DNA of 64,000 bases from Bacteroidales bacterium (GTDB lineage: Bacteria > Bacteroidota > Bacteroidia > Bacteroidales > M50B96). The stretch is from assembly GCA_021740905.1 (NCBI GenBank), contig JAIOYV010000032.1:1-64000 (forward strand), read 5' to 3'. Below, piece after piece: positions 454 through 61,677 of this stretch (position 1 is its first letter; each line of letters opens with the position of its first letter). The notes below the pieces were generated by a model. The model searched no databases, was not told where the DNA came from, and worked only from the letters and a program-made list of their open reading frames with translations. A program made the translations under genes and the position numbers.

Positions 454-3400
454 TTACGGATTGGCAGGATAATAAAATGAAGCTGGATTGGCCATTTTTA
501 TCTGATAACCCTTTCCTGACTTCATATTACCGATGGCGTTTAAAGAAAATGCCGGCCAGAATACCAATCCGTCTTCATCTTTCATAATGATAATATTGGA
601 GACAACGGAAGCCATCATATCGGTTGCCAGACCCGGAACATTTCTAAGATACCCAATTATGCTCCAATTAGAAGGTATATCTAAGGTTGTGTATTGAGGA
701 AAAACAGGGCTACCGGTAACAAACAAAGTATCTGCGACAATCATTTTATATTGATACCCTTCGCCAATTGTATGATTCCCAATCATGTTCAAATTAAAAT
801 TCGGCCAATAAACCAGGCCGTTCCCATTTTTTAGAATTGTCAGATTGCTATTCACATTCGCTAAAACTGAATCCAAAAGCGGTTGCACTGGATCGATATA
901 AGAGGACATAATCCCCCATCCTATATGTAAAGGGATTGCCTGGGTTTGCGAAAAGCCCGTTCCGGTCACATACACATCGTCGACTGCAAAACCAGAAGCC
1001 CAACTACCATTGTCGTTGTGAAGAAAAGCAATCTTTACACTGGAATATCCTGAGTATACACCTAAATCGATATTGATATTTTGCCAAAGGGCAGGATTTC
1101 CAGAAACGTACGAAACCAGATCCCAGGTGAACCCACAATCGGTGCTGGCCAGCACACTGCCGCTCGAATTAAGACCACCTGTAAGATAGGATTCGAACGA
1201 TAGGTTTATGGTGGCATATTGGCTAAAATCGAAAGCTGGGGTAATAAGCTTGTCATCGCTCATATCGCAAAAGCATGTGTCATCGTTTGATGAAGCATAA
1301 GTGGTGTGTGGAGGAACCGGAAAATATAAACTACTATTATCGCTGCTTATTAACCAACCATCCGATCCGGGAGCCTGACTTCGGGACCACCCCTCAGGAA
1401 GAATGCCTGCCTGGAAGTTTTCATAGTAAGGCAACTCTTTTGAAAGCGTAAAATTCAAAGCAACTGTGAGGGTATCGTTGAAAGCTGCCTGATCGCCGGT
1501 ATCGTTCAGGCTAAGGAAAAAGCTCTTTAATCCTGTTGAAGAAAGATCAACAGGCGTAGAGAAGGTGTGCCAGATACTGCTATCGGCAGGGATCGACGTG
1601 GACACAAAGTCGGTAACCGGGATATTATTATTGAGTTGATAAGTAAGATCAAAACCAGAAACCGGGTTCAACCCAAAATTACGTACTTCAACCACAACAG
1701 GCTCTGAATTGCTCATTGTACAATCGCCTGTTGGGTATACCAGGGCAGTAATCCCTATATCGTGGCCCTGGATGTCGAAGATGCGGAAATTATCGAAAGC
1801 AAATCCTTCAAGGGCATTAAAATTCTCGGTAGATCCAAAAAAGAAACGAAACCTGACTCCTTGCTGTCCACTTAAAAAGGACAAATCGAAACCCGTTTGC
1901 TGCCAGCTTGAATAGGGATTCTGTGACCACCCATTGTAGGTGCCAAGTGAGACTAACCCCGTTACCCAAGAACTGTTGTACCATGTTGGGTTGGATCCGA
2001 CAACACCCAATGTAGTCCAGGTAGAGCCCTCGTTGGTAGAGTATTGAAAGCAAGCACCATCTTCGAAATCTTCACATTCGAACAAAATATCGAAGGCCAT
2101 TTCCGGGGAAGTCAAATTGCTGAAATCGAACACCGGACTTCTTACCCACGATGCTTCGTACATATTGTAGCTTCCCGATAGGTTGGTGACCCATGCCTTT
2201 TGTCCTTGAGAAGCCGAAGATATGAAAGATCCTGTCGGGATTCCATTTGCCCAGGATGAATTGGCCCCCCCTGATGTCCAATAATTAGTTGTTTCGAATG
2301 ATTGTAAATAGGGAAAGCTTGTAATGGTAGGATAAGTAGATACGAGCAATACTTGGAGGGTATCGTTCATTAAGTTAATGTCGTACGCTTTTACTGCCCA
2401 AGCAGTAAATGTATTGTTGCCAGGAAGCGACATATTGGCCGTTTGCGTGAAATAGTAATCGAGGCTGTCGTTTGGTAAAACGCTGCTTAGGATTGTATCG
2501 GTATATGCAAATCCTCCATTTAGCTGAAAACCAACCTGAAAGTTTGAAACACTTATCGAGGAATAATTCTTTATTCTGATGCCAATAGGCTCGTTTGCTC
2601 CAAATTGAGGAGATGGAGTCGGACTTATCAAAGTCGAAACACCAATATCGTGCGTAGCCAAACTGCTGCCGGCAAGGGAAAAATGATCGATAGCCAGGAG
2701 CGATGAGAGATCATCCTGGTCGGAATTGGAAAAGGCAATTCTTGTGAGGTTGATGCCTGCGAACTGCGAAATATCCAACGAAATGTTCTCCCAGCCCGAA
2801 GTAGATGTTTGTTGGAGAATTGTGTCGTTCCAATTTTCGCCCACACCTGTGCTAACAAGAACAGCAAAGGGATGATCGGCAAACACATCAAAATTGAGAT
2901 GAACCGTATCGAGGCTCTCGAAATTAAAATAAGGCGAAATCAGTTTCGAAACCGCCAAAGCTGTATCGTTGGGATAATTGATCGAGGCCATGTAAAAGCC
3001 ATGTGGGGGAATTCCGAGATTAGAAAAATCTCCAGGCTGCCAACCAAAAGAAAAACTATCGGGACAACTTACCCACGAGGATGGGAACCAAGTAGAGTCA
3101 AAATTCTGTGTATATGGCAGGGTAAGGGACAAAGCGGTATTGTTGTAAATAATCCGGATATCATCAATAATAACCTGGTCCAGATTCGCATAGCGGCACG
3201 ATGACTGGAGACTAAGGATAAAATCCTGCCCGCCATAATCGCTCAAGTCGAAAATGGCCGACTGGTAAATATCGTTGTTGAAGCTCACTGGATGAAAGTT
3301 AGTCCGTCCACAATTGTCGCTTTGCTGCACGCCATTGGCCAACACCCTGAACCAGGAATACATGACAGATGAACTGGCAGTTTGCCGAAACTTTACCTGC

Positions 3401-3702
3401 AGTTCGATGGCATTGTAGTTTGTTGCATCGATATAAGTACTGAGCGATGCCCTATATTGTATATTATCGGCCCAGGCATTTACCGGTGTAGTTGCATTTC
3501 CATTGCCCACCCAGGTAGTTCCGGTGCCTCCCGTAAAAGTGGCCACCTGATTGTTGATTAACAACATAGATTGCTGCACAAAATAAGACTGGAAATAATT
3601 TGAATACCCGAGCGAAAAATCTTCGTGGAGTATTACTTCCTGCGAAGCAAGGGGCAGCCAGGCCGCCAATACAATCACTAAACTGAATATGTTCTTTTTC
3701 AT
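454..3702 (-). CDS. Large secreted protein with choice-of-anchor J/MAM-like domains
   Basis: Secreted multidomain protein, about 1082 residues. I chose the ATG at 3702, since MKKNIFSLVIVLAAW followed by a small-residue cleavage region is a clean signal peptide; an in-frame start 9 codons upstream would spoil it. At least three modules beginning P-Y-x-x-(N/S)-F, with S/T-W-G aromatic patterns and D(F/Y)S turns, look like choice-of-anchor J (MAM-like lectin) domains. They alternate with CARDB-like stretches (DIGI-x-x-L-x-x-P-T). The last 170 residues are two copies of a roughly 70-residue module (GW-I-x-x-Y then YWP, LN-x-IGN, GYQ-x-KM) also present in the giant island protein. The protein ends at the second module with two consecutive stops and has no T9SS sorting domain, so its surface anchoring is unclear. 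An adhesive or carbohydrate-binding role is inference. Confidence 0.75.
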   Translation of the reverse strand: MKKNIFSLVIVLAAWLPLASQEVILHEDFSLGYSNYFQSYFVQQSMLLINNQVATFTGGTGTTWVGNGNATTPVNAWADNIQYRASLSTYIDATNYNAIELQVKFRQTASSSVMYSWFRVLANGVQQSDNCGRTNFHPVSFNNDIYQSAIFDLSDYGGQDFILSLQSSCRYANLDQVIIDDIRIIYNNTALSLTLPYTQNFDSTWFPSSWVSCPDSFSFGWQPGDFSNLGIPPHGFYMASINYPNDTALAVSKLISPYFNFESLDTVHLNFDVFADHPFAVLVSTGVGENWNDTILQQTSTSGWENISLDISQFAGINLTRIAFSNSDQDDLSSLLAIDHFSLAGSSLATHDIGVSTLISPTPSPQFGANEPIGIRIKNYSSISVSNFQVGFQLNGGFAYTDTILSSVLPNDSLDYYFTQTANMSLPGNNTFTAWAVKAYDINLMNDTLQVLLVSTYPTITSFPYLQSFETTNYWTSGGANSSWANGIPTGSFISSASQGQKAWVTNLSGSYNMYEASWVRSPVFDFSNLTSPEMAFDILFECEDFEDGACFQYSTNEGSTWTTLGVVGSNPTWYNSSWVTGLVSLGTYNGWSQNPYSSWQQTGFDLSFLSGQQGVRFRFFFGSTENFNALEGFAFDNFRIFDIQGHDIGITALVYPTGDCTMSNSEPVVVEVRNFGLNPVSGFDLTYQLNNNIPVTDFVSTSIPADSSIWHTFSTPVDLSSTGLKSFFLSLNDTGDQAAFNDTLTVALNFTLSKELPYYENFQAGILPEGWSRSQAPGSDGWLISSDNSSLYFPVPPHTTYASSNDDTCFCDMSDDKLITPAFDFSQYATINLSFESYLTGGLNSSGSVLASTDCGFTWDLVSYVSGNPALWQNINIDLGVYSGYSSVKIAFLHNDNGSWASGFAVDDVYVTGTGFSQTQAIPLHIGWGIMSSYIDPVQPLLDSVLANVNSNLTILKNGNGLVYWPNFNLNMIGNHTIGEGYQYKMIVADTLFVTGSPVFPQYTTLDIPSNWSIIGYLRNVPGLATDMMASVVSNIIIMKDEDGLVFWPAFSLNAIGNMKSGKGYQIKMANPASFYYPANP

Positions 3703-36090: not shown

Positions 36091-36095
36091 AATTA

Positions 36096-37981: not shown

Positions 37982-38014
37982 GCTCTTTTCAAGTTTGTAT
38001 TTTCTGCAAACGGG

Positions 38015-38213
38015 TTTGCAAACGGGAATTTTGTAAATACTTGGCAATCAAAGTGATTTTCTTTGCAAGTCGTTTGCAAAAGTACTTGGGGTTGCAAAGA
38101 AGATTGCAAACGGCAATTGCATGACAGTATACCGCTAAGTTGCCATTTTTGCAAAGAAGATTGCAAAGAAGAAATTATTAATCGACTGATAATCATGCAT
38201 ATTTTCTTTGCAA
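38015..38213 (-). promoter_or_regulatory. Cluster of eight TTGCAA sites upstream of hsdS
   Basis: TTGCAA, mostly within the 8-bp palindrome TTTGCAAA, occurs at 38016-38021, 38063-38068, 38074-38079, 38092-38097, 38104-38109, 38149-38154, 38161-38166 and 38208-38213. The arrangement TTGCAAAGAAGATTGCAAA is present twice (38092-38110 and 38149-38167), placing sites 12 bp apart. The cluster fills the gap between the nucleotidyltransferase gene (ends 38279) and hsdS (starts 37981). It is probably an operator array for a cluster regulator. Confidence 0.6.
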
Positions 38214-38278
38214 TCATGCCTTGAGTTTGTAGGTTCGTTGGTTGTGTTTTATCTCTTTTGCCATTTCTATAAAACCTT

Positions 38279-39052: not shown

Positions 39053-40056
39053 CCTTTGTTTTCAAGTATTTGTTCTAAAGCCATTTGCACCCTCTCGTCA
39101 TTATCTTCTTTGAGTGTGAGATATAAAGAGAGTGGGTCTACATATTCATTATTCGCCAAAATTGCAGGAGGGTACTTCCATGTTTCAATGCTATATTTTC
39201 CATCGTAATCGCTGTACCTTTTTATTTTTCCTTCTTTATGCAGCTTTCTGAATAAATCCTGGTGTATGGCAAAGTGCAATTGCTTATCATCGTTTAAGTC
39301 TGTATAATGAGCCAATGCGTTTATGTTGCTTTTGAAAAGTATTTCATTTGTAATCTCGTCATCAATAAATATATTTTTCACAACGGGATTTCTCATAGAC
39401 TCAAATGCTTTTTCCCATAATTCTTTCTTCTCAAACTCAAAATAAACAGTTTTCTCTTTGCTGCCCTCAACCTTACAAAGCCCTAATGTTTTAAGATTCT
39501 CTACTGCTCTGCTTATGGTCAAATAAGGGTAGTTTAGTTTAGCTGCGAGCTGCTTGTAATTACATTGGTTTAGCTCTTCTTTTTGTAAATGAAACAGGAT
39601 CAGGCATTGTGCTGCGGGTTGCAAATACTCTTTCCTTTGTGGTTTTAGTGCATATTCCTTTATGTCAAATGCTAATCCGGGAATGAAAATTTGCTTGTTG
39701 CCTATCACAAAGTTTATTCGTTTTTGAATCAATCTATTTCTATTATAAGTTTCGAGATCGGACAACACAAAAACTACCACCTTGTCAAAGTTTCGTTCGA
39801 GCAATTCCTGTTGCTTTTTATATTGGTCGGGAGTGAAATGTTCAGGAGTAAGCTTTTTTGCAAAAACGATATTTCTATCCAGTAAATTTCCTTCCCAAAA
39901 TGTATATTCTTTTGTAATGTAAAAAGGTAAAACATTTGTCTGTTCTTTTAGAATTTCGGTAAAAACCGGTGTGTCTCCAAAAACTTCCCGTATGTAATTT
40001 ATTGCGCCCTTCATTGTTATCTTTTTTAAATTATCATTTACATTGCAAGTTATCAT
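39046..40056 (-). CDS. Winged-helix regulator, AbiEi-like putative antitoxin
   Basis: Protein of 336 residues (or 322 from a second ATG at 40014, MKGAINYIREVFG). A central winged helix is visible in NYKQLAAKLNYPYLTISRAVENLKTLGLCKVEG (about residues 165-200, quoted here in two parts in the family sense: QLAAKLNYPYLTISRAV and LKTLGLCKV). The N-terminal 130 residues resemble a small alpha/beta domain, and the C-terminal part is unassigned. Position and overlap with the nucleotidyltransferase gene suggest the antitoxin/repressor of a type IV-like pair. It could bind the TTGCAA cluster located beyond its partner gene. Family naming is tentative (often annotated MarR-like). Confidence 0.62.
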   Translation of the reverse strand: MITCNVNDNLKKITMKGAINYIREVFGDTPVFTEILKEQTNVLPFYITKEYTFWEGNLLDRNIVFAKKLTPEHFTPDQYKKQQELLERNFDKVVVFVLSDLETYNRNRLIQKRINFVIGNKQIFIPGLAFDIKEYALKPQRKEYLQPAAQCLILFHLQKEELNQCNYKQLAAKLNYPYLTISRAVENLKTLGLCKVEGSKEKTVYFEFEKKELWEKAFESMRNPVVKNIFIDDEITNEILFKSNINALAHYTDLNDDKQLHFAIHQDLFRKLHKEGKIKRYSDYDGKYSIETWKYPPAILANNEYVDPLSLYLTLKEDNDERVQMALEQILENKGW

Positions 40057-40107
40057 TGTGCTTTGAAAACTTGCAAATATAGTGATAATATATTGAATAT
40101 AAATATA

Positions 40108-40866
40108 TCATAAACAGTATGTAGCATTGTTGTTAAAATTTTTATTCTCATTATATTGTACATAGCCCAATTGATTGGTTAGCATTTGTGTCTTGCCAAT
40201 TAAGAAATCGGGAGTATTACTATGATGATGTCCATAAATCCAGAGATTGGGTTCGTTGGTTTCAATAAGGTCAAATAGTTCTACACCAAAAGCCTCATTC
40301 AATACATCGCCTATGTATTGTTCAGGATAGTTTAAAAAAGTGGGGACGTGGTGGGTAACTACTACTGTTTTACCTTTGTAGTTCTTATGTAGTTCCTGTT
40401 TAACAAAGTATAAGTTTTCGTCATGCTGTTGATTAAAATGCTCGGCAGAAAAACGATCTCCTTTATTTTTGATGACCTGAAAATCACTTATACTTCTTTC
40501 TATCAGCCACTGATTGGAAATATTAATCTTCGACCAAAGAGTAGAGAAAATGAAGCGAATGGCATTGAGATGAACAGTTAAATTATTAATTAAATGGACA
40601 TTGCTTCGGATATTTTCATTAAATGTTCCACATTTCGCAGATATGTCATAATAGTAATATTCATGGTTGCCGGGAATCCAGTAAGTAGTTTGAAAATTGT
40701 CGGAAACATAGCTAAAAAAATCCTTGTGTTTATCCAATACAACGAAAGGAACAATATCGCCCGCCAACAATAATACGTTTCCCTTGGGTAGTAAGGGATT
40801 TGCTTTAAGGAATACCTTATTTTCAGGAAATTCCAGGTGAAGGTCGGACGCGTATTGTATGGTCAT
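40108..40866 (-). CDS. Calcineurin-like metallophosphoesterase
   Basis: Phosphoesterase of 252 residues with the complete metal-binding series: YASDLHLEF, LLAGDIV, PGNHEYYYY, VVTHHVP and YGHHHSN. There is no signal peptide, so it is cytoplasmic. The gene starts 1 bp after the hsdM stop, so translation is coupled to hsdM. Metallophosphoesterases of this type are seen as R-M or defence accessories; a nuclease or nucleotide-phosphodiesterase activity could be involved, possibly counteracting products of the neighbouring nucleotidyltransferases, but that is inference. Confidence 0.88.
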   Translation of the reverse strand: MTIQYASDLHLEFPENKVFLKANPLLPKGNVLLLAGDIVPFVVLDKHKDFFSYVSDNFQTTYWIPGNHEYYYYDISAKCGTFNENIRSNVHLINNLTVHLNAIRFIFSTLWSKINISNQWLIERSISDFQVIKNKGDRFSAEHFNQQHDENLYFVKQELHKNYKGKTVVVTHHVPTFLNYPEQYIGDVLNEAFGVELFDLIETNEPNLWIYGHHHSNTPDFLIGKTQMLTNQLGYVQYNENKNFNNNATYCL

Positions 40867-40867
40867 A

Positions 40868-42436
40868 TCAGGCTCCCAGTTCCTTTATATATTTTCCCAT
40901 TTCTGCCTGTACTGTTTTCAGTTCATCTTCCAGTTTTTCAATTTCCTGTTGCACGGCTGCAATGTCTACTTCTGCTTCTTCCTCAAAGGTATCCACATAA
41001 CGGGGTATGTTCAGGTTGAATTCGTTTTCCTGAATTTCCTCAAAGGTAGCCACATAACTGAATTTTTCTTCCAACACACCTGCTTGCAGTTTGCCTTCAT
41101 TAAACTGGCGATACGTGTTAACAATATGTTGGATGTCGGATTCACGCAGCTTGTTTTGGTTTTTGGCCGATTCGTAATGCTGGCTGGAATCAATGAATAA
41201 GACATTCGTATTTTCGGCCTTGCCTTTGTTAAATACCAAAATAGCCGCCGGGATTCCCGTTCCGAAAAACAAATTGGCAGGTAGGCCAATCACTGCTTCC
41301 AGGATGTTTTCTTCGATGGTTTTTTGGCGTATTTTCCCTTCGCTCGCACCACGAAACAAAACTCCATGTGGTACTACAACGCCTACCTTCCCTTTGCCTT
41401 CGTAAGTGGTTTCAATCATGTGGCTGATAAATGCCCAATCGCCTTTGCTCTTGGGTGGTGTGCCTCTCCAAAAGCGATTGTATCTGTCGGTTTCGGGGTC
41501 GAAGCTGTCGCTGGCTTTGTTCTCTTCTTTATCATCACTCTTTCCCCATTTGTCGAGCGAGAAAGGTGGATTGGCTACTACTGTGTCAAACTTCATCAGG
41601 GCATCACCTTCTTTCAGTTTTGGATTTCTTATGGTATCGCCCCACCGAATGGTTGCTTTGTCGAAGCCGTGCAAGAACATATTCATCACCGCTAAAGCCC
41701 AGGTGCTTCCATTGGCCTCCTGTCCGTAAAGCGAAAAGTTATCTGAACCCACTTCCTCTCCGGCTTTAATCAAAAGGGATGCAGAACCACAAGTTGGATC
41801 GCATATCCGGGAGCCGGGTTTTGATTTTGTGAGCTTGGCAATTACAGTGGAAACTTCTTTGGGGGTAAAAAATTCACCGGCTTTTTTTCCTGCATCGCTG
41901 GCAAAGTTCTCAATCAGGTACATATATGCACCACCAATAATATCTGTGCCCTCAAGATGTGATGGCCTCAGATCCAAACTCTCCTTATTGAAATCGAGAA
42001 GGAGGTTTTTCAAGCGGGTGTTTTTGTCTTTTGTGTCACCTAATACACTGCTATTGAAATTAATGTTCTGGAAAATCCCGGCTCCGTCTTCGCTGTACAG
42101 CTTTTCACGGTTGGCTTCCACCAGGTCTTCCAGGGCAATATCAATTAACTCCCCAATATTAAGTTCGTTGCGGTGCTCGTATAAATAATTGAAATGGCTG
42201 TGTTCGGGCACCACAAAGCGTTCATGTTTCATGGCACGCTCGGCTCGCTCTTTGTCGCCATTGTATTTCTCCAAATGCGCTTCATATTTATCATCGTGCA
42301 CATCGCTCAGGTATTTCACGAAAAGCATAGTCAGCACATAGTCTTTATACACGCTGGGATCAATGCTCCCGCGAAAGGTGTCACATGCTTTCCAGACTGC
42401 ATTGTTTATGTCTTGCTGTGTTATTTTTTTAGCCAT
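40868..42436 (-). CDS. hsdM: Type I restriction-modification DNA methyltransferase subunit M
   Basis: N6-adenine methyltransferase subunit, 522 residues. The N-terminal helical domain (AVWKACDTFRGSIDPSVYKD) precedes the methyltransferase core with GEFFTPKEVS, SAM-binding motif I DPTCGSASLLIKAG (near residue 213) and catalytic motif IV NPPFSLDKW (near residue 289). All motifs are intact. The C-terminus ends in a coiled-coil-like helix (IEKLEDELKTVQAEMGKYI). A half-size specificity gene ends 5 bp upstream and the metallophosphoesterase starts 1 bp downstream. Confidence 0.96.
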   Translation of the reverse strand: MAKKITQQDINNAVWKACDTFRGSIDPSVYKDYVLTMLFVKYLSDVHDDKYEAHLEKYNGDKERAERAMKHERFVVPEHSHFNYLYEHRNELNIGELIDIALEDLVEANREKLYSEDGAGIFQNINFNSSVLGDTKDKNTRLKNLLLDFNKESLDLRPSHLEGTDIIGGAYMYLIENFASDAGKKAGEFFTPKEVSTVIAKLTKSKPGSRICDPTCGSASLLIKAGEEVGSDNFSLYGQEANGSTWALAVMNMFLHGFDKATIRWGDTIRNPKLKEGDALMKFDTVVANPPFSLDKWGKSDDKEENKASDSFDPETDRYNRFWRGTPPKSKGDWAFISHMIETTYEGKGKVGVVVPHGVLFRGASEGKIRQKTIEENILEAVIGLPANLFFGTGIPAAILVFNKGKAENTNVLFIDSSQHYESAKNQNKLRESDIQHIVNTYRQFNEGKLQAGVLEEKFSYVATFEEIQENEFNLNIPRYVDTFEEEAEVDIAAVQQEIEKLEDELKTVQAEMGKYIKELGA

Positions 42437-46560: not shown

Positions 46561-49500
46561 CTATTGGATGTTCATTACCTTGGTATCTGTAAATTTGTCG
46601 CATACTATTTTATAGAAATAAGTTCCCGATGATAAATTCCCTGTTTCGAATTGAACACTATATTTCCCGGCATCGTACCGGGCCGAAACCAATTCTTCGA
46701 TTATTTCGCCCAGTGCATTGTACACACTCAATCTTACGTGGCTTGCCTCGGGTAGGTTGAAAGATATTTCGGTCGCATCACGGAATGGGTTAGGAACGTT
46801 TTGATACAGTTTGAAACCGTCAAATTCCTCTCCAATAACTTTCAACTTCTCGATTACCGAAATAGCATCCTTACCATATTGGTCATTCCCCTGGAGCCAA
46901 CTTTCAACCACCAGTTCTTGTTCGGTGTTTCTCGTGAAACTCCATAATTTCAGTGTAAATACATCGCCGTTTGCGATGCCTTCGGTCCTATCTTCGGTAA
47001 AGCTGTCGTCGCCCCAGATAGTAATCGCATTGAAACCATCCTGGTATACGGTGCTACCGATCAATTCGCCCTTAGCATTGTAAACCCCAATCTCGTCGTC
47101 TACTTGTGGGGCAGCGTTCCAAGCATCTTCAAGGATCCCGAGGCTCATGTTGTGCCCGGTGTTTTTCACTTTGTTGTATTTTTCGGGTTGAACAAGCATT
47201 CCATTGCTTTTTGTAGGTGCAGCGGTGTTGGCTGGGAAAGTAAATGATTGCAGGCTGAGCATCTTGATCTGATAACCATGACCTGGCACCATATTGCCAA
47301 TGGTGTTCAAACCATATAGAGGCCAATAAATCTGGCCACCCCCGCTCTTCACAATAATTATTTGCGAAACAATGGGTGACATAACGGTGGCTGCATTCAT
47401 TGGTGTGGTACGCAGATACCCCATAATGCTCCATCCGCCCGGGATGTTGATCGGGCTGACAACAGGATCGATCTGCAATCCTTGTACATGAAGTATTTTG
47501 GCAGTGCTCATTTTTATCTGGTATCCCTGGCCCATCACAGCATTTCCTATGGTGTTCAGGTTATACAGTGGCCAATAGATTGTGCCCGACCCACTCTTCA
47601 CGATAGTTACATTGCTGGCAATAGAATCGAAAATAGCTACCATGTTCGGGTTAACCGGGTCGACATACGTTGACCAAATACTCCAGCCCAAAGGCAGGTC
47701 GATTGGCTGCAAGATGATCGATTGTGCATTCAGGCAGTTGATACCGCTAAAACCACCGGTAATGTAGGTCCCCTGGTTCGGATAGCTGGCAATGTAACAA
47801 GCCGGGCCGCCATATTCTACTCCAAGTGCAGCTTCATAAAGCCTCCATGTAAATGTTTCACCAGGATTGAAGCCGTTGTCCTGGCCTGTTGTTGAACCAT
47901 AAGCAGTAAGAGAAGTCGACATGCCTGACCAATAAGTCCAACCTCCGCACACCATAGTACCATTCGAATTGTAGAATACACCAAGCAAACTGCCATAAGC
48001 TGCATTCATACCATCAAGCATAATGGATGAATTTTGGTCAACAATAATCAAATGTGAATTTGTTGTCGGCGTTACTGTCCAGCCTGGGGGCAATGGTGAG
48101 TTAATAGTAATCACTTCTTCTATTGAACAGCCATTGGCGTCATAAACAATTAGGGTATAAATACCGGCATGTATTGAATCAAGATTTTGAGTTGATGCAC
48201 CATTCGACCAAACAAACGTATAAGGTGATGTACCACCTGAAATTGTAGCAGTTATTGTTCCATCCTGACCACCTAAAGTAGTTACATCTGATCCGGCAAG
48301 TGACAATGACAAAGCAGGTGGTTCAGTTATCGTAACCGATTCCACCTGTGAAATTCCCTGGCCATCGGTAATCGTCAGCGTATAGGTTCCGGGTCCGAGG
48401 CCGTTCAGGGCTAATCCGGTAGCGCCGGTCGACCATTCATAAGTCAATGGAAGTGTTGCGCCCGGAATGATTGGGGCCACTGAAGCTACTACAGAACCAT
48501 TTGCAGCACCATTACATTGAATGTTACTTACCGAGAAGTTGGCAACAGCTATGTCAGCGAAAGTTCCGGTAATTTCCAATACGTAATCGCCATATTCACC
48601 CTGGAATCCGTATACCTTAGCATAATAAGTACCAGCAGATAGCATATTGAAATGGACATTCGATTGTTGCCCACAAGAATTATTGTTATAGCCAAGGTAT
48701 GAACTTGTCAGGAAACTATTTACAGGACATTGATCGTGAACTTCCAATTTGGTATCGAATAGGGAACCACAAAGGCTTACATCTACATCAATGGCATCAA
48801 CCGGCAATTCAAATCTCCACCACTGACGGTCGTAGGGGTGTATCGTAGTTTGGTATACAGGTGGATCATTTAATGCCAAATAGGGGAAGGCTGTAGCACA
48901 GGATTCCCCATTTCCATCCCAGTTGGAGAAGACTGTACAGTACTCGTTGTTGGCAGGATAACCATCGCCGGAAACCTCGGTACTGGCACAAATGGAATAA
49001 GTCCCGAATACCGAAACGTTCACACTGTCGGTAAAGGTAAAGCTATACACCTGTCCAGGTACAATTGTAGCAGTAACCAATTGAGTAACCGGAGCACCAC
49101 CATTCAATGTATATTGAACATTGAAGCTGGAGAGATCAAGTAAGCCATTATTGTAAATGTCGATGGTAACCGCTGCATTGTTCATATTACTGGCCGAAAC
49201 AGGCGAAGTAATGTCTAAAACAGCTCCGTCGTAGATAGCATATTGCACATTGACATTAACCGGGGTTAGATCGCTTCCACAACCGGCAGCCCCGGCTGAG
49301 TAAAATACTGTTCCGTTAAATACCCTGGGTGTATTGGTTAGGTTGAAATATGAGCCACCATGACCACATTCGATTTTCATGTCATTATTTTGATAAATCT
49401 CATTAATCCCATTTCCATTCGTGTAATTTTTACCTGAACCGGTAACATAGGTAATATAGATGCCGTATGTCTCGCCCGCAGGAATTGTAATACCACCTAT

Positions 49501-52500
49501 CGTTAAAAGTGAATTCGCAGTAGTACCCGCAAACTGCACATTAGCACTACCGGCAAGGGTCCATGCAGATTGTGTATTTTGGAATCCCAAATAGGCACCC
49601 TCTTTATACCAAACCTCCATGATTCCGACGTTGTCGCAATTTATAAAGAAACTGTCAATAGTAAGTTCATCGAAAGCAGTAACATCAAACATTACGCCTG
49701 ATGATCCATTGCCTGAAGCCATTGTTGTGAAAAGCTCGTTCGACTCCAAAGTGTTGGAAGAAGCTTGAACGAAGTAGCTTGTTGTGTCGAACAATACAGG
49801 TGTAGTAAAGAAAGTCTCGGTTCCCATTGATACATTAGTTGCATCGAACCACTCATAATTTAATGTAGAATCTGGATTGATAACATTTAATGTTCCTGAA
49901 GTACCTGCCCATATAGTAATGTCGTTTGCCATAGGTGCGGCAGGGCTAACATCCGAAAGTAGGGTAGCAAATGCAGTATCGTTAGTTTGAATGGGATCGC
50001 CGGTATAACTGAGCCAGGCCGAGATTGCAAATTCAGTTTGGAGAGCAACTGCCAGGTCAATCTGCGTTGAAAAGGTATATGTTGCCGTATCACCGGGATT
50101 CAATATACCTGTATAGGTTTCGGTAACCGGACTTACCATACCGGGTTCGTAATACGAAACAGGAATGTTTCCAAATATGGTATCGGCTATATTTACAAAA
50201 GTAATAGTAACATCTTCCAAACCTAAATCACAACCTTCAATCGGAGCAACGATGTTCAACATGGCCAGGTCGAATTGTGGATCTGCAAATAAGGTTGTAC
50301 AGGTAGCATCATTCAAAGTGTTACTGTCGTTTATTAAAACAGTATAGGCACAAAGTTCAAAATTCCCGCCAGGTACAATCAAATTGCCCAGTGATAAAGT
50401 ATCCGATTCAAAGGATGGTAATGCTCCAATGTAAGCGGTAGTAACAGGGTTTAGCCCGTTAACTGTGTAAACCACATCCATACTGTAAATGGTATCGGTC
50501 CCATAGTTATTCACTACCACTTCCACAAGATGGGATGTGTTTTCCAATAAATAGACAGTCGGCGAAAGAATAGCAATTGCCCCGGCATCGGTAGCATAAG
50601 GTGGCTGTACGAATACCTGGTAATCCTCTGTTTCACCGTATGTGTAACTCCCACATGGCACAACTCCTGTTGCAGATGTAGTTTGTTCCAATACCACACG
50701 CATACTATGGTTTCCAAGAGCAGCAGATGTTGGGACGCTCAACATTCCGGTAACTGTTTGTGAAGAAGTGATGGCCGAACTGAGGGCCGTTTCCTGTGGT
50801 TCAGTGTAAACACCATCGTTATTCCAATCTACATACACTTCGACCCAGCAAGAGTATTGTGTTGAACTGCCAGGAGCAAAACCGGAGGTTATACTGATAG
50901 GATGTGCATTTCCAAGAACCAATGCCCCAGGTGCAACCGAATTGTTGTAATTCGAATACAAGGAACCGGATGGGAAAGAATAATTGCTGATATTGCTTAA
51001 ATCAACCTGCACAATTTCTTCGTTTCCATTATTAGTAGCTCCTGACGAACAGAAAACAGGAGGCAAGTTGACCACTGTGAATGAAAGTGTGTCATTGGCA
51101 GGAAAGCCATCACTAAATAATTGGGTATATACATCGAAATGATAGGCCCCGTAAGCAGATAGATCAGTAGGTGTGTTAAACGTGAATGTAGAGGAAGTAC
51201 CACTGGCAATAGGTGTCGTAAAAGCTACTAATTCTGTAACTGTACTCGAAGTAGTACCAGTAATGTCGTAAGTTATTTGAAAGAGGTTGGCAGGCAGACT
51301 ACCCCAGTTGTTAATTTCAACAGATACAATTTCAGCATTGCCAAGGTTTGTTGCAGAAACCGGCGAGTAAGCCCCAACAACGCCTATATCATTAGCCGGA
51401 ATATTTACCACATAAGCAGTAACAGGAACCATGTCACTCGTACAAGAACCAAAAGAGGTGGAAATGTTCATACCCACATTGGGAAATCCTAGGTCGTCGG
51501 TTGTTGGGTTTGTCCAGTCTGCCACAACATCGTCATCGTAGTTTATCCTTCTTAGGAAAGGGTTCGGATAGTTCATCATGGCATCACCGTTCCAGGCTGA
51601 ACTAGGATTGACCGCGAAACCATTAATAGTAGGTGTCCATGCAGCAATTTCAGCAGCAGTCCAGCCCCAAATCATCATGTCCACTATTTCGCCCTGGCCA
51701 TCAACAATCATGGCCCAACCCCGGAAAGTTGGTGGTGCTCCCTGATTCCAGTACATATTACCTCCCCAATAGTCCAGTGAACCTGACTGATCGGTTCTAA
51801 TTTGTACTTCGTCGGCAGCAAATACACCTAAATTCCAATAAGTCGAATTGATAGCTGTTATATCGGTATAGCTGTCACTGATTGCAACAACCCACCCTGT
51901 AGCATCTAATGTAGAACCGGTTAAATTTTGGATTTCAATAACATCATAAGTACCCATATCCATTTCTGTAATGGCCAATCCACTGGAACCACTGCCACCG
52001 GCTTGGGCGTAAAAAATAGCTGTATCGAACAATGGCCCGATGGTCAAGTTGTTTCCAGATGCTAATGGAGTGGTGGATAGTGGATCGTCGTACCATGAAA
52101 TGGAATCGGTAGAAATTACACTTATTGTGGCCATGCTACCATACAAAACTGTTGTGTTTACTGCAACGGGGGCAGAAGGCTGATAGAGCGACTCGACAGT
52201 TGCAAAGGCTGTATCATTATTCTGATTCAGGTCGCCGGTTAGGGTAACCCATGCCGTTAAGTTAAAGATAGAATCCGAAGTTACCGTTAAGTCGACCGGG
52301 GTGGTAAAGCTAAATAGTAATGTATCATTCGATAATAGGGTATTTGTTACAGCTTGCGAAACAACCGTGTTATTGTTCAATTGATAGTAAGCAGTGAGGT
52401 TCCCAGAAATTGTGTTCGATCCAAAGTTATGGATTTTAATGGTAACAGGCTCCACGCCTAATCCACAATCACCAAGTGGTTCGGGAATCGAAACGCAAGC

Positions 52501-55500
52501 TGCATCCCACGGTGCAGGATCGGTTGTGGTAGCTTTGATCATCCAACGACGATCGTTTGTAAATTCTGTCAGGTTTGAACCATTCAGATCTGAATAATAG
52601 TAGGCATCCCAGCGCATGGGAATTTCATCCTGATATCCGATCGGCTGATAATTCCCGGCTACCGGTGGTATTTGTGCAAAACCAGCCTGAAATTCAGTAT
52701 TCGACATGGTAGTGGCTGCCGGATTTGTGATAGGCAGTGTGAGCCATGTATTATAATGGCTGGCATCCAAAACAATGGTATCACCGTTTGCAAGGATGTT
52801 GTGGTTTGCATCTAAAACAACTCCATATACACTGTTCCCGGCATTGTTAGGATCATCGGTAATATACACCTGGATAGCATTGATTTGCTTCAGGCCGTTC
52901 AAATAATACTTGGTTTGATAGATACGACCTGTTTGTGCACCACCATAACCAACGCTTCCACTGGTATCGGCATAAGCAAAGGTATTTTGCGTAGCCTGGT
53001 GGATACCTGTCAATTGGTTGTTTGAATTGTCGGCATCGTTGGGTACACTTACCACAAGACTGTCGAAACCAACAATGGTAGGTGTAAATGGTGCAAAGTA
53101 AACCGTATCGACCGCACCCGAAGTTAGCAAGGGTAAAGTAATCGTGCTTGCAAAGGTGTTGGCCCCTGTAATAGTTAAAGTAACCGGTAGGTTTACCTGA
53201 TCTGCCGAACCAACATTGGTAACTAATACAGAAACTACCTCAGCACCACCTTCAATAGGTACTTCCCCATAATAATATAATCGTTCGATGGCGATATCGT
53301 TGGGAGGTAGTAAAAGGTTGAATTCATCGGCTCCAATATCAGGAGTAAGCGGGTTACGTGGATTGGCATCAATATCGGTGGTCACTTCTGGTACAGGTGT
53401 AGCAGAGGCATTTAGGTAAAGCGAGAAGGTATGCAGGTCGTTGGCCGAAATGTGTTCAGGATCCACACTTAACACATCGCCCGGTGAAACAGTTTGCCAG
53501 TCGGATAATGTAGGATAATCTGCGGTGAAATAACAAAGGCTGTTTCCGGTTGTATAAAGGTTGTTGTTCGAACTGGTAATGCCTGGTAAAACTGCTGAAT
53601 TACCATACAAAGCACGGCCACCATCAAAATTAGCAATCGAATTATTTTTAAAGTCAAATATGCCTGAAGTGGCAGAACCGTAAAAATAGCAGGCAAACAC
53701 AGTACTACCCGTATAGATGGCTACTGAATTGTGGTATACATTGATATAGTTGCTATAATATAGATAGAGGCCATATACGTTCCCGGTATTTCCATTATTA
53801 CTGATCATGTTGTTGGCAACTAAAGCTGGTGCAGCCGAAGTAGCATCACAAGAATATATACGAATACCATAAAAGGTCGAGCCGGCATCATCGTAAATGA
53901 TATTGTTAACTGCTCGTATGGGTCCATCGCTATAGCGGAGATCTATACCATAATTCGTTGAATAACCATTCACTCTTTGATGAACTAAGTTGCCATCGAC
54001 ATTAACTTCGAATTCGTAATTGGTATATACACCATAGCTATAGTAGTCATGCATAGTGTTGTTGATAAGTGCATTTCCGTATTCCGGTGCACTCGAAGCA
54101 GCAAATAAGTATACTGAATAATAACCATCTTGAAAGTAATTCCCAATAAAAGTATTGTAATTATCGCACGAACTTGAATAGCTATATACACATGCATTTT
54201 TATTATTAGTATTGCTTTTTGATTTAATATAACAATTGCTAAAGGTGTTAAAATCGGAGCCTCCATCGAGTACAACTACATAGCCCTGGTTTGCCGTTCC
54301 ATAAGCCTCTAAGTAAATATTTTGAACGGTCACATAATCGGCACCATCCAACATAAATACCCAGTTGTCTGCATTACTTGAAGCACTATATTGAACCGTA
54401 ACATCATTATAATTACCTGTTGCTGACTGGAAAGTAATAGTATTAAAGGCTGATGCCCCGGGAATTTCAGGAATAGTGACTTGTTCATCATATGTGCCGG
54501 ATTCCACATTAACTATAACCGGACCGCATACTCCATTGGTGCTTATAAAATTAACGGCATCCCCAAAAGTGGTAAAATCGCCGGTTGCCCCAATGGTGAA
54601 ATTTCCTGAAACAGCTGTTGTTACACCTGTAACAATCAAACTATCGTTTCCGCTGTTTGGATCGATGCTGTTATTTGGGAGAGAAGACCAAACAGTAAAG
54701 TCGTAAGTGGTTCCGGCCAGCAGGTTGTAATTTCCAATAACCACATCCGCAGATCCACCAATCGGTATAGTTGTGGTATATGATAAAGGTGCTTGAAACA
54801 CCCCGTTTACCATCCAATTTATAACTACCGAGTTCAGGGCCACTAAACCATAATTTGACACGTTTGCTACAATATCGGTAACGCCCGGACAATTTGCATT
54901 TATCCCGGGCAAACCGGTAATGGCTGCATCGTTGTTGGCCAGTGTATATTCATCTGCCCCAACATCAGGTGTAAGCGGGTCGCGAGATTCTCCGTCAATA
55001 TCTGTGGTTACTTCGGAAACAGGTATGGCGGCACCATCCAAGTCCAGTGAATTGGAATGTAAATCAGTACTTGAAAGATAGCTTCCATCGGTATTTAAAA
55101 CATCACCTGGCGAAACAGCCTGCCAATCGGTAATAGTAGGATAATCGGAAGAAAAATAACACAGGCTTGCACCGGTTGTATACAGGTTATTGTTAGAACT
55201 TATGAGGCTGTTGATAATATTTGCTGTACCGTATAGTGCTCGCCCACCTGTCTTGTTTACAATACTATTATTCAAAAAGGTGTAATTACCTGATGAAGAA
55301 GAACCATAGATATATGCTCCATAAGTAGTTCCTCCCGAATTTATATTTACCGAATTATGGTACACATTTATGTAATTGCTATAGTATAAATATAATCCAT
55401 AGGTTGTACCGGTATTTCCATCGTTGTATACCCAATTATTGGCTACTAAACCAGGGGCTGTTGGGGTAGCATCACAATAATATATCCTCAAACCATAAAA

Positions 55501-57978
55501 AACCGTTCCTGCATCATCGAAAATTTTATTATTGGTAACTACAATGGGGCCATCGCAATAGGACACATAAAATGGATAATTGGAATTGTTCCCGTTTGGA
55601 TCTTGGTAAATATAGTTTCCTGAAATTGTAGTAGCATATTGATAATAATTGTACATTCCATAATAGTAGTACATATCAATGGTATTATTCAGGAACTGGT
55701 TTCCTTCTTCTAAGTTAGAGGAATTACTGTACCAGTAGATTCCATAGTAGCCACCAATTACAGTATTCCCACTTATGATATTAAATTCATCTTTAGAATC
55801 GCTATAACTTCGAATAGCCGCAGCATTAGAGTTTGTAGTATTGATACTCTCAATAATGTTACCATTAACAATATTATGGTTTGAAGTATTTTGGAAAATT
55901 ACAACGCGTCCGTAGTTCGTAGAGGTATTCGATTTAATGGTAATGTTTTGAACAATATTGTAATCGGCACCATCAAAGGCCCATACCCAGTTATCGTTAT
56001 TACCGGAAGCACTATATTGAACAATCACATCTGTGTTGTTACCTGTGGATGATTGCCATGTAACTGTATTGGTTGCATCAACGCCAGTTACTTCTACTAA
56101 ACTAACCTGCTCGTTGTATGTACCGGGCAAGATATTGAATACAACCGGGCCACATACACCATAGAGTTGGATAAACTGCTGTGCAGCTCCAATACTTATA
56201 AAATCACCGGTAGCACCGATCGTATAAGTGCCGGCAGCTGCCGTTTGGATACCGAGGTTTGAAGCTCCATCGTTTAGAGTATTCAGGTCAACTATGCCAT
56301 TTGGCATTGAAGTCGAACCCACCAAATCGTAAGTCATTCCCGAAAGGAAAGTATAAGTACCCATATTAAAATTTAAAGAACCACCCACCGAAATGGTATC
56401 GGTTACTAAAACGGATTGTTGGGCCACACCATTGACACTCCAGTCAACAGTAACCTGAGTAAGGTCTATTAACCCAAAGTTATTGATGGTGATAAAAATA
56501 TCAGTTGTACCTGGGCAAAGCACACCAAGTCCTACAAAACCTGACACACCTGCATCGACCATAAATAAGTCGAATTCGTCAGCACCAATAGATGGGTTCA
56601 GAGGGTCGCGGGCTTCGCCATCAATATCAAATTGAACTGAGGACAAAGGCTTGCCCGAAGTCATTAAAAATGGTGAATAGCAATGCAAGTTGGTAGGACT
56701 TGCAAATACAGGGCTCACCAGTTTTGAATGAGGTTCTATCAGGTTTAGGTTGGCAGGGGCCGAGGCATTCCATACACCAAACTGAACTGCAGTTGCACCA
56801 GTTGAAAAGTAGTTGTTGTAGTCAGAGTAAGTAATCATACCAGGACTCATGGCATTATCGGTTACATAAATTGCATACCCAATATTCGTATTGGCAAAAA
56901 TATTATTGGTCAGGCGGATATTTCCATATCCTGCTGTGGCCGGTTGATCTACGTAACAGGCAGCCGCCAATGCACTGCCACCGACCATGTTTACAGAGTT
57001 GTTGTATATATTTATGTGGCTTGAGTTTTCCACAAAAAAACCATAGCTACTACCCGTAGCACCGGTAACTGATATAAAATTATTTGCTATCAAACTTGGG
57101 TTGTTTGCTGTACCTATTGTGCCGGTTAACCGGATCCCCTGTACTTCTGCAATCCCGTCAATTACAAGGCGATTATTCTCAACCAACAACCCATCGTAGC
57201 AAGAGCCAAAGTCAAGAACATTTAACGTTGCACTTACAGAACTGCCATTGTGAACATAATTATTCCGGAAGGTCAGGTTTTCATGTTGGCTGGCTTGTAT
57301 CGCTTTACCATAAAAGCCATCCACAATATTATTCTCGATGGTAACATTTTCATGGTTCACAGTTGCAGAGCCAAGGTAGTAAATGGCATTCTTACCATTA
57401 AGCAATTTATTATTTGCTATGGTAACATTGGAACAAGCTCCATTTCCACCTTCTTGTGCTATAACGATGGCCGAAGTACCATCAGATGTTAGGGAAGGTC
57501 CTTGTAAAACATTGTTTAAGATGTTGATATGCGAGCTTCCATACAACCTGAATATCTGTCCATTATTTCCGGTTGAAGTGGATTTGATAGTAATGTTTTT
57601 TATGGTAACATAGTCACAGTGGTCAAGAATAAATATCATTAAGTCGGCGCCAGTATCTGTATTCCATTGCAAGGAAACAGAAGTACTATCACCATTTTGC
57701 GAAGTAATGGTAATGGTATTGATTGAATCAACTCCGGCAATGGTTGGAATAGTTACTTGTTCGGTATACGTTCCAGGGGCCACTTCAAATACAACCGGAC
57801 CCGAAACTCCATTTGCATTTAGCGAGTCTACTGCATCACCGAAGGTCAGATATCCGGGAGTTGAGCCAATCGTATAAATTCCAGCAAGAGGTCCTTGTGA
57901 AAAAGAGACCTTTCCAACAACAAAAATCAATAAAAGCAAAAAAAGGTGCTTCATTTTGAAGGTAAAATTTCGTTTCAT
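46561..57978 (-). CDS. Giant T9SS surface protein (3805 residues)
   Basis: Very large secreted protein. Signal peptide (FLLLLIFVVGKVSFS, about residues 12-28). Three tandem blocks of roughly 540 residues start at about residues 33, 588 and 1126. Each opens with YTIG-x-x-x-(D/G)(Y/F) and GPVVF-(E/N)-x-x-PGTY-x-EQV, contains a parallel beta-helix rich in NN turns and ends in a conserved DIDGE(A/S)RDPL-x-P-x-x-GADE motif plus a CARDB-like domain. Then come CARDB repeats, a lamin-tail-like domain (about 1996), a GEVED domain with YVDWNNDGVY (about 2378), a pre-peptidase C-terminal domain (about 3020-3140), SprB-like repeats (about 3146-3300), two copies of the YWP/LNTIGN/GYQIKM module (about 3423-3585) and a T9SS type A domain (about 3727-3805). 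Probably an adhesin. One uninterrupted frame of 11.4 kb. An upstream 7-bp inverted repeat lies at 58085-58113. Confidence 0.85.
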   Translation of the reverse strand: MKRNFTFKMKHLFLLLLIFVVGKVSFSQGPLAGIYTIGSTPGYLTFGDAVDSLNANGVSGPVVFEVAPGTYTEQVTIPTIAGVDSINTITITSQNGDSTSVSLQWNTDTGADLMIFILDHCDYVTIKNITIKSTSTGNNGQIFRLYGSSHINILNNVLQGPSLTSDGTSAIVIAQEGGNGACSNVTIANNKLLNGKNAIYYLGSATVNHENVTIENNIVDGFYGKAIQASQHENLTFRNNYVHNGSSVSATLNVLDFGSCYDGLLVENNRLVIDGIAEVQGIRLTGTIGTANNPSLIANNFISVTGATGSSYGFFVENSSHINIYNNSVNMVGGSALAAACYVDQPATAGYGNIRLTNNIFANTNIGYAIYVTDNAMSPGMITYSDYNNYFSTGATAVQFGVWNASAPANLNLIEPHSKLVSPVFASPTNLHCYSPFLMTSGKPLSSVQFDIDGEARDPLNPSIGADEFDLFMVDAGVSGFVGLGVLCPGTTDIFITINNFGLIDLTQVTVDWSVNGVAQQSVLVTDTISVGGSLNFNMGTYTFLSGMTYDLVGSTSMPNGIVDLNTLNDGASNLGIQTAAAGTYTIGATGDFISIGAAQQFIQLYGVCGPVVFNILPGTYNEQVSLVEVTGVDATNTVTWQSSTGNNTDVIVQYSASGNNDNWVWAFDGADYNIVQNITIKSNTSTNYGRVVIFQNTSNHNIVNGNIIESINTTNSNAAAIRSYSDSKDEFNIISGNTVIGGYYGIYWYSNSSNLEEGNQFLNNTIDMYYYYGMYNYYQYATTISGNYIYQDPNGNNSNYPFYVSYCDGPIVVTNNKIFDDAGTVFYGLRIYYCDATPTAPGLVANNWVYNDGNTGTTYGLYLYYSNYINVYHNSVNINSGGTTYGAYIYGSSSSGNYTFLNNSIVNKTGGRALYGTANIINSLISSNNNLYTTGASLCYFSSDYPTITDWQAVSPGDVLNTDGSYLSSTDLHSNSLDLDGAAIPVSEVTTDIDGESRDPLTPDVGADEYTLANNDAAITGLPGINANCPGVTDIVANVSNYGLVALNSVVINWMVNGVFQAPLSYTTTIPIGGSADVVIGNYNLLAGTTYDFTVWSSLPNNSIDPNSGNDSLIVTGVTTAVSGNFTIGATGDFTTFGDAVNFISTNGVCGPVIVNVESGTYDEQVTIPEIPGASAFNTITFQSATGNYNDVTVQYSASSNADNWVFMLDGADYVTVQNIYLEAYGTANQGYVVVLDGGSDFNTFSNCYIKSKSNTNNKNACVYSYSSSCDNYNTFIGNYFQDGYYSVYLFAASSAPEYGNALINNTMHDYYSYGVYTNYEFEVNVDGNLVHQRVNGYSTNYGIDLRYSDGPIRAVNNIIYDDAGSTFYGIRIYSCDATSAAPALVANNMISNNGNTGNVYGLYLYYSNYINVYHNSVAIYTGSTVFACYFYGSATSGIFDFKNNSIANFDGGRALYGNSAVLPGITSSNNNLYTTGNSLCYFTADYPTLSDWQTVSPGDVLSVDPEHISANDLHTFSLYLNASATPVPEVTTDIDANPRNPLTPDIGADEFNLLLPPNDIAIERLYYYGEVPIEGGAEVVSVLVTNVGSADQVNLPVTLTITGANTFASTITLPLLTSGAVDTVYFAPFTPTIVGFDSLVVSVPNDADNSNNQLTGIHQATQNTFAYADTSGSVGYGGAQTGRIYQTKYYLNGLKQINAIQVYITDDPNNAGNSVYGVVLDANHNILANGDTIVLDASHYNTWLTLPITNPAATTMSNTEFQAGFAQIPPVAGNYQPIGYQDEIPMRWDAYYYSDLNGSNLTEFTNDRRWMIKATTTDPAPWDAACVSIPEPLGDCGLGVEPVTIKIHNFGSNTISGNLTAYYQLNNNTVVSQAVTNTLLSNDTLLFSFTTPVDLTVTSDSIFNLTAWVTLTGDLNQNNDTAFATVESLYQPSAPVAVNTTVLYGSMATISVISTDSISWYDDPLSTTPLASGNNLTIGPLFDTAIFYAQAGGSGSSGLAITEMDMGTYDVIEIQNLTGSTLDATGWVVAISDSYTDITAINSTYWNLGVFAADEVQIRTDQSGSLDYWGGNMYWNQGAPPTFRGWAMIVDGQGEIVDMMIWGWTAAEIAAWTPTINGFAVNPSSAWNGDAMMNYPNPFLRRINYDDDVVADWTNPTTDDLGFPNVGMNISTSFGSCTSDMVPVTAYVVNIPANDIGVVGAYSPVSATNLGNAEIVSVEINNWGSLPANLFQITYDITGTTSSTVTELVAFTTPIASGTSSTFTFNTPTDLSAYGAYHFDVYTQLFSDGFPANDTLSFTVVNLPPVFCSSGATNNGNEEIVQVDLSNISNYSFPSGSLYSNYNNSVAPGALVLGNAHPISITSGFAPGSSTQYSCWVEVYVDWNNDGVYTEPQETALSSAITSSQTVTGMLSVPTSAALGNHSMRVVLEQTTSATGVVPCGSYTYGETEDYQVFVQPPYATDAGAIAILSPTVYLLENTSHLVEVVVNNYGTDTIYSMDVVYTVNGLNPVTTAYIGALPSFESDTLSLGNLIVPGGNFELCAYTVLINDSNTLNDATCTTLFADPQFDLAMLNIVAPIEGCDLGLEDVTITFVNIADTIFGNIPVSYYEPGMVSPVTETYTGILNPGDTATYTFSTQIDLAVALQTEFAISAWLSYTGDPIQTNDTAFATLLSDVSPAAPMANDITIWAGTSGTLNVINPDSTLNYEWFDATNVSMGTETFFTTPVLFDTTSYFVQASSNTLESNELFTTMASGNGSSGVMFDVTAFDELTIDSFFINCDNVGIMEVWYKEGAYLGFQNTQSAWTLAGSANVQFAGTTANSLLTIGGITIPAGETYGIYITYVTGSGKNYTNGNGINEIYQNNDMKIECGHGGSYFNLTNTPRVFNGTVFYSAGAAGCGSDLTPVNVNVQYAIYDGAVLDITSPVSASNMNNAAVTIDIYNNGLLDLSSFNVQYTLNGGAPVTQLVTATIVPGQVYSFTFTDSVNVSVFGTYSICASTEVSGDGYPANNEYCTVFSNWDGNGESCATAFPYLALNDPPVYQTTIHPYDRQWWRFELPVDAIDVDVSLCGSLFDTKLEVHDQCPVNSFLTSSYLGYNNNSCGQQSNVHFNMLSAGTYYAKVYGFQGEYGDYVLEITGTFADIAVANFSVSNIQCNGAANGSVVASVAPIIPGATLPLTYEWSTGATGLALNGLGPGTYTLTITDGQGISQVESVTITEPPALSLSLAGSDVTTLGGQDGTITATISGGTSPYTFVWSNGASTQNLDSIHAGIYTLIVYDANGCSIEEVITINSPLPPGWTVTPTTNSHLIIVDQNSSIMLDGMNAAYGSLLGVFYNSNGTMVCGGWTYWSGMSTSLTAYGSTTGQDNGFNPGETFTWRLYEAALGVEYGGPACYIASYPNQGTYITGGFSGINCLNAQSIILQPIDLPLGWSIWSTYVDPVNPNMVAIFDSIASNVTIVKSGSGTIYWPLYNLNTIGNAVMGQGYQIKMSTAKILHVQGLQIDPVVSPINIPGGWSIMGYLRTTPMNAATVMSPIVSQIIIVKSGGGQIYWPLYGLNTIGNMVPGHGYQIKMLSLQSFTFPANTAAPTKSNGMLVQPEKYNKVKNTGHNMSLGILEDAWNAAPQVDDEIGVYNAKGELIGSTVYQDGFNAITIWGDDSFTEDRTEGIANGDVFTLKLWSFTRNTEQELVVESWLQGNDQYGKDAISVIEKLKVIGEEFDGFKLYQNVPNPFRDATEISFNLPEASHVRLSVYNALGEIIEELVSARYDAGKYSVQFETGNLSSGTYFYKIVCDKFTDTKVMNIQ

Positions 57979-61628: not shown

Positions 61629-61677
61629 TTTAAATTTAACATTATCAAAAGTAGAGATATGAAAGCGCACTTAAACT

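Follow-up and report, generated by a model that had tools for sequence, protein, structure and literature searches.

Dockerin modules are built from a duplicated short unit, lie at the C-terminus, and are present in many copies on varied exported proteins. In T9SS bacteria, a C-terminal place is also taken by the type A sorting domain (PF18962/TIGR04183), a single, all-beta domain of ~75 amino acids. The choice-of-anchor families of NCBIfam (NF041895 and others), whose name we read as implying a variable C-terminal anchor, name the cargo and not the anchor. Finally, the T9SS type C signal (NF033708, ChiA) lies at the C-terminus and belongs to neither type A nor type B (PMC10202324).

Here we describe a paired module present in two proteins of a Bacteroidales bacterium, both encoded within a stretch of 64,000 nucleotides (the window). 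The pair has in common with dockerins the duplicated short unit, the C-terminal place, the many copies and the varied cargo, but no search result links the two. Like the type A domain, it is C-terminal, and within this genome the two share some cargo families; unlike that domain, with which it has no sequence match, it is made of two units, and where both are present the type A domain is a separate one that lies 3' of the pair. One protein that ends in the pair (L074) is a choice-of-anchor V protein, and no NCBIfam model matched the pair itself.

The paired module and its host proteins in the window

The features of the two host genes are listed below by their coordinates in the window.

454..3702 (-): backbone host protein, 1082 amino acids (ORF 454-3729, 1091 amino acids), with a signal peptide by eye and a Reelin-subrepeat-like region
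685..936 (-): unit 1 of the backbone-protein pair, from profile matches and pairwise alignment
457..684 (-): unit 2 of the backbone-protein pair, C-terminus FYYPANP, then stop
46561..57978 (-): giant host protein, 3805 amino acids, with beta-helix, CARDB, GEVED, Ig_7, SprB, pair, X' and sorting domain
47740..48087 (-), limits approximate: X-like domain 5' of the giant-protein pair, 34% identical to part of L079 (another source-genome locus; E 8e-15)
47446..47703 (-): unit 1 of the giant-protein pair, within ORF 46561-57978, from profile matches
47227..47445 (-): unit 2 of the giant-protein pair, last residues FTFPAN
46816..47163 (-): X' domain of the giant protein, between pair and sorting domain, all beta by model, motif NTGxNM...GDEIxVF...AITxWGDD
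46564..46815 (-): T9SS type A C-terminal sorting domain of the giant protein (PF18962/TIGR04183)

Each unit is ~75-80 residues long, and two stand side by side at 47227-47703 (-) and at 457-936 (-), in pairs that are 48% identical to each other. A first-pass annotation of this DNA had placed a tandem pair in both proteins, and its positions were right to within a few bases. It had also read the pair as the very C-terminus of the backbone protein. We found that a TAA, followed by a TGA, stands directly 3' of the second unit, and a search of Pfam and NCBIfam for a sorting domain in this protein returned none. For the giant protein, the claim that the pair precedes a T9SS domain needs one addition: the type A domain is indeed downstream, but X' (~116 amino acids) intervenes. 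Nor are the two host proteins wholly unrelated, as had been supposed, for they have a stretch of ~100 amino acids in common (39% identity, E 3e-10). The X-like domain on the other side of the giant-protein pair was not called by the X' profile.

Several other genes of the window were noted. The gene for an S41/CtpB-like peptidase with PDZ domains (4071-5747, -) adjoins the backbone gene, and two more type A sorting domains, at 9540-9773 and 62934-63155 (-), belong to proteins without the pair. Type I restriction-modification genes occupy 30786-42436 (-), with HsdR at 30786-34013, HsdS at 36785-38047 and HsdM at 40868-42436, and a RecG-C-like (HATPase_c_4) gene lies among them at 34354-35925 (-). 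A tyrosine integrase (Arm-DNA-bind_5, SAM-like, Phage_integrase) is encoded at 60411-61670 (-), near the giant gene, in line with an island.

Copy number and pairing in the source genome

A profile built on both window pairs recovered them at E 1e-95 and 2e-92. When we applied this profile at E <= 0.01 to the source genome, a 6.54-Mb draft in 160 contigs, it returned 90 matches, the window's two included; these two E values and the 88 additional places exclude a chance likeness. All matches beyond the window's two were extracted as stretches, their ORFs were read, and units were counted with a unit profile. We found exactly two units in 86 of the 90 ORFs and one unit in four, of which three (L140, L141 and L143) are short or cut and one (L144) is a divergent lone unit. 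In one two-unit ORF (L142) the units lie ~1000 residues apart, which leaves 85 adjacent pairs. The earlier description of the module as always paired thus fits 86 of 90 ORFs by count; it does not fit the four single-unit ORFs, the distant units of L142, or relatives in which single units occur (L185, L187, L191, L203 and L205).

Among the 83 pairs long enough to align, mean identity was 41% between first units and 45% between second units, versus 37% between the two units within a protein. The higher identity of like units suggests that the pair looks like an old duplication that spread as a pair. At least 80% of sequences keep residues that in unit 1 include W, S, Y, P, K, G, WP, N, IG, GYQ, G and P, and that in unit 2 are W, GYLR, K, G, YWP, N, IG, M, PG, GYQ, YP and N. 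The cargo of the pair-bearing proteins is varied: nuclease, CotH, cohesin-like, PKD, SprB and beta-helix.

Two endings: X' with a sorting domain, or a stop at the pair

Beyond the pair, 57 of the 90 ORFs continue for 200-235 residues (the tail), 25 have at most 17 residues left before the stop, three have a longer continuation, and five are fragments, a class set by a length rule. We refer to the first as tailed and to the second as pair-ended. All but two of the tails match the T9SS type A sorting domain (55 of 57; the two match the FISUMP domain), and in 54 of these 55 one fixed, Ig-like X' domain stands between the pair and the type A domain. Co-occurrence with T9SS domains, which had been proposed as a profile check, is therefore borne out, with the pair forming the C-terminus in 25 more ORFs. 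Strong matches to X' (E 3e-24 or better) numbered at least 57 in the source genome, where 150 of 178 candidates were scored: 53 lay in tailed pair ORFs, one in a fragment (L143), and three in ORFs without the pair, which consist of X' and a sorting domain. X' had no Pfam match at E 0.01 (39 members).

Some ORFs are organised differently. An ORF of 250 amino acids in the source genome (L359, C136:31000-34000) holds only a signal peptide (by eye), X' and a sorting domain. In five ORFs (L100, L102, L110, L113 and L117) the pair is internal and no sorting domain was found after it; FISUMP domains follow the pair in two, which judging from their ends are L102 and L110, and L100 and L117 have FISUMP-like ends by eye.

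The pair-ended proteins end cleanly. Past the pair profile, 14 of the 25 have no residue, four have one, two have two, two have five, and one each has 7, 11 and 17, so that 20 stop within two residues; the protein with 17 (L135) has a cut second unit and lies near a contig end. At E 0.01 none of the 25 matched TIGR04183 or another T9SS signal of NCBIfam (TIGR04131, or NF033708, the type C signal), and PF18962 was absent among the best 25 of the 30 Pfam families matched. We also searched downstream of the 25 genes (1200 bases for 23, and 453 and 83 bases for two) for remnants of X' or the sorting domain, and none was significant directly after the stop. Downstream of L130, X was matched ~725 bases away (E 0.001), and downstream of L119 the sorting domain was matched ~825 bases away (E 0.021); the remaining matches had E >= 1, and one of these, to X (E 1.3, chance level), immediately follows the L121 stop codon. 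By a crude rule, a signal peptide is present in 21 of the 25 pair-ended and 51 of 53 tailed ORFs; of the four pair-ended ORFs that the rule missed, three have starts that resemble signal peptides by eye, and L132 has none in its ORF.

The endings exchange on the same cargo

Within the source genome, the two endings exchange on the same cargo families. Of its three copies of Endonuclease I, those on contigs C7 and C19 end in the sorting domain and that on C144 ends in the pair. With a purpose-built profile, 28 of the 30 best-scoring Endonuclease I loci (C7 copy included) had the sorting domain, one ran off the stretch, and one had no call. Similarly, choice-of-anchor V is followed by the sorting domain on C4 and by the pair on C125. 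Among the 30 best choice-of-anchor V loci, 22 had the sorting domain, seven ran off the stretch, and for one the wrong frame was taken; one such locus (L268) has a single unit before its sorting domain. A short cargo recognised by eye (SWTxGE...TQGF) stands before the bare pair in L103; in L071 and L118 it is joined to the full series of pair, X' and sorting domain. Longer likenesses also cross the two classes: pair-ended L081 is 31% identical to tailed L068 over 2013 amino acids, and L129 is 45% identical to L057 over 868 residues, among the matches listed.

On a tree of 78 pairs, 24 of them pair-ended, the ending changes at least 19 times, compared with a mean of 20.6 after shuffling (118 of 500 shuffles were as low); the tree itself is weak, with seven of its 75 inner branches starred. 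Pair-ended and tailed pairs thus do not form groups on this tree, and their sequences are in line with one module that would serve both contexts.

The pair and its two endings in other genomes

In a sample of the phylum, the pair is present in 18 of 296 genomes, the source genome included. At the 26 loci from the other 17 genomes, the sorting domain follows the pair in 20, the protein ends at the pair in five, and one runs off; X' was called in 17 of the 20 loci with a sorting domain, and in one of the 20 a single unit was called. These counts agree with the first-pass annotation, which mentioned similar sequences before T9SS domains in other Bacteroidota. Within the order, 44 of 198 genomes, again with the source genome included, have the pair at E <= 1e-6, and in nine all 19 scored candidates matched. 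We read 10 high-scoring places, picked from the listing, in each of six order genomes and obtained 61 two-unit ORFs at 60 loci: 37 continue into X' and the sorting domain, 14 end at the pair, two are otherwise, and eight run off.

A third set, which partly overlaps the genomes of the other two, comprised 64 further loci from genome records that span Flavobacteriales, Bacteroidales, Ignavibacteria, KSB1 and Calditrichota MAGs. A two-unit ORF was present at 55 of these loci, and the 58 such ORFs divide into 23 with pair, X' and sorting domain, 21 pair-ended, nine with pair, X' and a short tail, one without X', two otherwise, and two cut. The nine short-tailed ORFs (L151, L154, L155, L167, L173, L174, L178, L179 and L182) belong to Flavobacteriales-type MAGs and have the pair and X', then a tail like LGRE...YNDGSVKK and no type A domain; this tail is possibly a shortened sorting signal. 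One record with a pair-X'-sorting-domain protein (L165) is from a Desulfobulbaceae MAG and may be a mis-binned contig.

Known families and fold

The pair of both host proteins matched no credible Pfam or NCBIfam family. We then considered 104 pairs (83 from the source genome and 21 from other genomes) singly. Against Pfam they gave scattered weak matches, none of them credible, among the best 25 of 34 families, with a best E of 8.5e-4 for one of the 104 members. PHROGs likewise gave weak matches only among the best 25 of 89 families (best E 9.6e-4); this value belongs to phrog_7448, which 13 of the 104 pairs matched weakly and which may or may not hold phage relatives. Sequence and profile searches of the PDB matched a designed 3fPizza propeller (E 9e-4, profile positions 35-146), with two weaker rows. 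We set this identity aside, as in our judgement the order of strands and helices predicted in the AlphaFold2 model does not resemble a propeller. A literature search found no description of the module, a weak negative given that sequence motifs are not searchable as text.

AlphaFold2, run on the 104-row alignment of pairs, gave a model with pLDDT 97.5 and pTM 0.90, in which the two like units, made of beta strands and one helical stretch, are predicted to form one knob. Foldseek found no solved relative of this model in the PDB (best E 0.32, TM 0.14), a result that, as the tool itself cautions, is no proof of a new fold, and VIA-align reached a best Z of 3.5 over 79 residues, with no clear fold among the matches listed. 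A model of pair, X' and sorting domain together had a pLDDT of 90.6; in it X' and the sorting domain are all beta, and its Foldseek rows are Ig-like and adhesin chains. The first-pass annotation gave no function for the module and named a match to a well-described domain as the outcome that would count against it; no such match arose among those listed in Pfam, NCBIfam, PHROGs or PDB sequence searches, and we reject a known-domain reading. From these results, we conclude that the pair is a widespread module without a name in the libraries searched.

Related units end viral proteins

A Foldseek search of BFVD returned one borderline relative, A0A8D9C8P8, from an uncultured marine phage (E 1.4e-3, TMq 0.57), and we therefore scanned viral contigs. 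These scans found five loci and then 12 loci on 12 contigs of uncultivated viruses, those five included; a scan with one relative's pair as the query found none, and cultured phages (INPHARED) gave no pair match by tblastn at E 1e-3. The 12 contigs hold 15 unit-bearing ORFs, 14 with two or three units and one with a single unit. Since the units are often apart or interrupted, and a third unit is present in two ORFs, the viral form appears looser. The last unit nevertheless ends within 16 residues of the stop in all 15 ORFs, and a sorting domain was called in none. Read from the first Met, 13 of the 15 have no signal peptide by eye; of the others, L381 is cut at its 5' end and L377 (5281-6252) has a short hydrophobic start. 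That viral proteins also end in these units indicates that the C-terminal place belongs to the module itself and does not stem from T9SS export.

The neighbour genes on seven of the 12 contigs were compared with PHROGs. Tail-fibre matches were present on three (best E 2.2e-8, 2.9e-24 and 1.4e-33), in each case one gene from the pair gene; a fourth contig had a weak tail-fibre-assembly match (2.3e-4), and three had none. On those three contigs the genes with the units resemble phage tail-region genes in setting, and a role in the virion would be putative. Four of the loci (L375, L376, L378 and L379) have a similar gene order: ~1050-amino-acid gene, ~200-amino-acid gene, pair gene, ~250-285-amino-acid gene and larger gene, the last tail-fibre-like where tested.

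Discussion

Our results suggest, tentatively, that the pair is an autonomous terminal binding module, which would attach bacterial proteins to a surface and give phages their contact with the host. The two like units would form one knob at the end of the chain. In T9SS bacteria, this knob would most likely tether exported proteins to some component, probably a glycan, of the surface of the producing cell or of a neighbouring one. Shorter exported proteins would end in the knob alone, and longer ones would carry the knob, X' and the type A sorting domain, the last of which would provide T9SS export. In phages, related units that end the products of genes near tail-fibre genes would probably touch a bacterial surface. 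A terminal binding knob could account for a module that occurs with and without a sorting domain, for its pairing and terminal place, for its many copies on varied cargo, and for its presence in viruses. The weakest step of this reading is how pair-ended proteins leave the cell, and whatever route they take would be an inferred one.

A rigid pair of repeats could equally act as a spacer or an assembly interface. In its full form, as a structural spacer, cap or oligomerisation module with no ligand, on proteins that stay in the periplasm or are passively released when they lack the sorting domain, this is a less likely account of the pair. The very regular paired fold that the high-confidence model predicts and the fixed order of pair, X' and sorting domain (54 of 55) fit such a role. 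So does length: pair-ended proteins have a median of 640 amino acids (n = 23), compared with 1885 for tailed proteins (n = 55; Mann-Whitney p 7e-8, with L132, L135 and the two FISUMP ORFs excluded), which would be in keeping with a need for export in large surface proteins only. However, a spacer need not sit at the last residues, and this reading leaves both the terminal place and the number two unexplained; the repeats of a spacer could differ in number, yet two units recur in 86 of 90 ORFs, with more variation in relatives and viruses. In addition, the YWP and GYQ positions are conserved in pair-ended and tailed proteins alike.

It is also rather unlikely, and to much the same degree, that the pair is an alternative C-terminal sorting signal, read by the T9SS or by another outer-membrane exporter, which would form a class beside types A, B and C. 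In favour of this idea, the pair and the type A domain replace each other on the same cargo and the pair-ended proteins end cleanly, and the type C signal, unlike both A and B (PMC10202324), offers a precedent. SprA (TIGR04189) was present in 18 of 18 pair-bearing genomes, but it was also found in 15 of 18 others tested, so that it hardly discriminates, and a T9SS link is consistent with these counts. Against a pure T9SS signal, related units end viral proteins that mostly have no signal peptide and carry no sorting domain, so the terminal place needs no T9SS; moreover, the 55 proteins with both pair and type A domain would be doubly signalled. No shuttle accompanies the pair either. Four tandem PorV-like genes, below the family cut-off, lie at C8:11994-17261 of the source genome; we rejected a PorV paralogue as the partner, as these four are unmatched at such scores in nine other pair-rich genomes. 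PorP/SprF, with 10 copies above the cut-off in the source genome, was rejected as well: by coordinates, only the C19 copy is near a pair-ended gene (~2 kb from L073) among those compared.

An improbable reading is that the pair is a dockerin-like docking module, whose many C-terminal copies would dock onto a small set of receptors on a surface scaffold: the abundance of copies, their place at the C-terminus, the doubled unit and the varied cargo would suit it, but the search that covered the PorV and PorP families gave no partner domain, and the phage copies would need the same partner. Least credible of all is that the pair-ended genes are artefacts of assembly or annotation, broken copies that lost their tail, for although the genome is a 160-contig draft and L135, one of the 25, lies close to the end of a contig with its second unit cut, 20 stop within two residues, no significant tail remnant follows directly, and pair-ended proteins recur at five of 26 phylum loci and in 14 of 61 ORFs of the six order genomes and 21 of 58 genome-record ORFs.

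This analysis adds four points to the first-pass annotation: the scale of the module (~85 adjacent pairs), X' as a fixed domain, cargo families that occur with either ending, and the units in viruses. In one genome, a domain left unnamed by the libraries searched is carried by about 85 proteins, most of which have a signal peptide, and 25 of these proteins end in it without a recognised sorting signal. As a terminal binding module, the pair appears to be a tip in wide use for surface binding or surface targeting. That it would at once be the surface tag of T9SS bacteria on proteins without a sorting domain and the host-recognition tip of phages, directed at the same surface component, is a more doubtful extension; viral-protein ends with the module would then point to a shared receptor, which would make the idea testable. 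Should the pair direct proteins to the surface or fasten them there, T9SS predictions based on the known signals would overlook one class of surface protein in this order and among its relatives.
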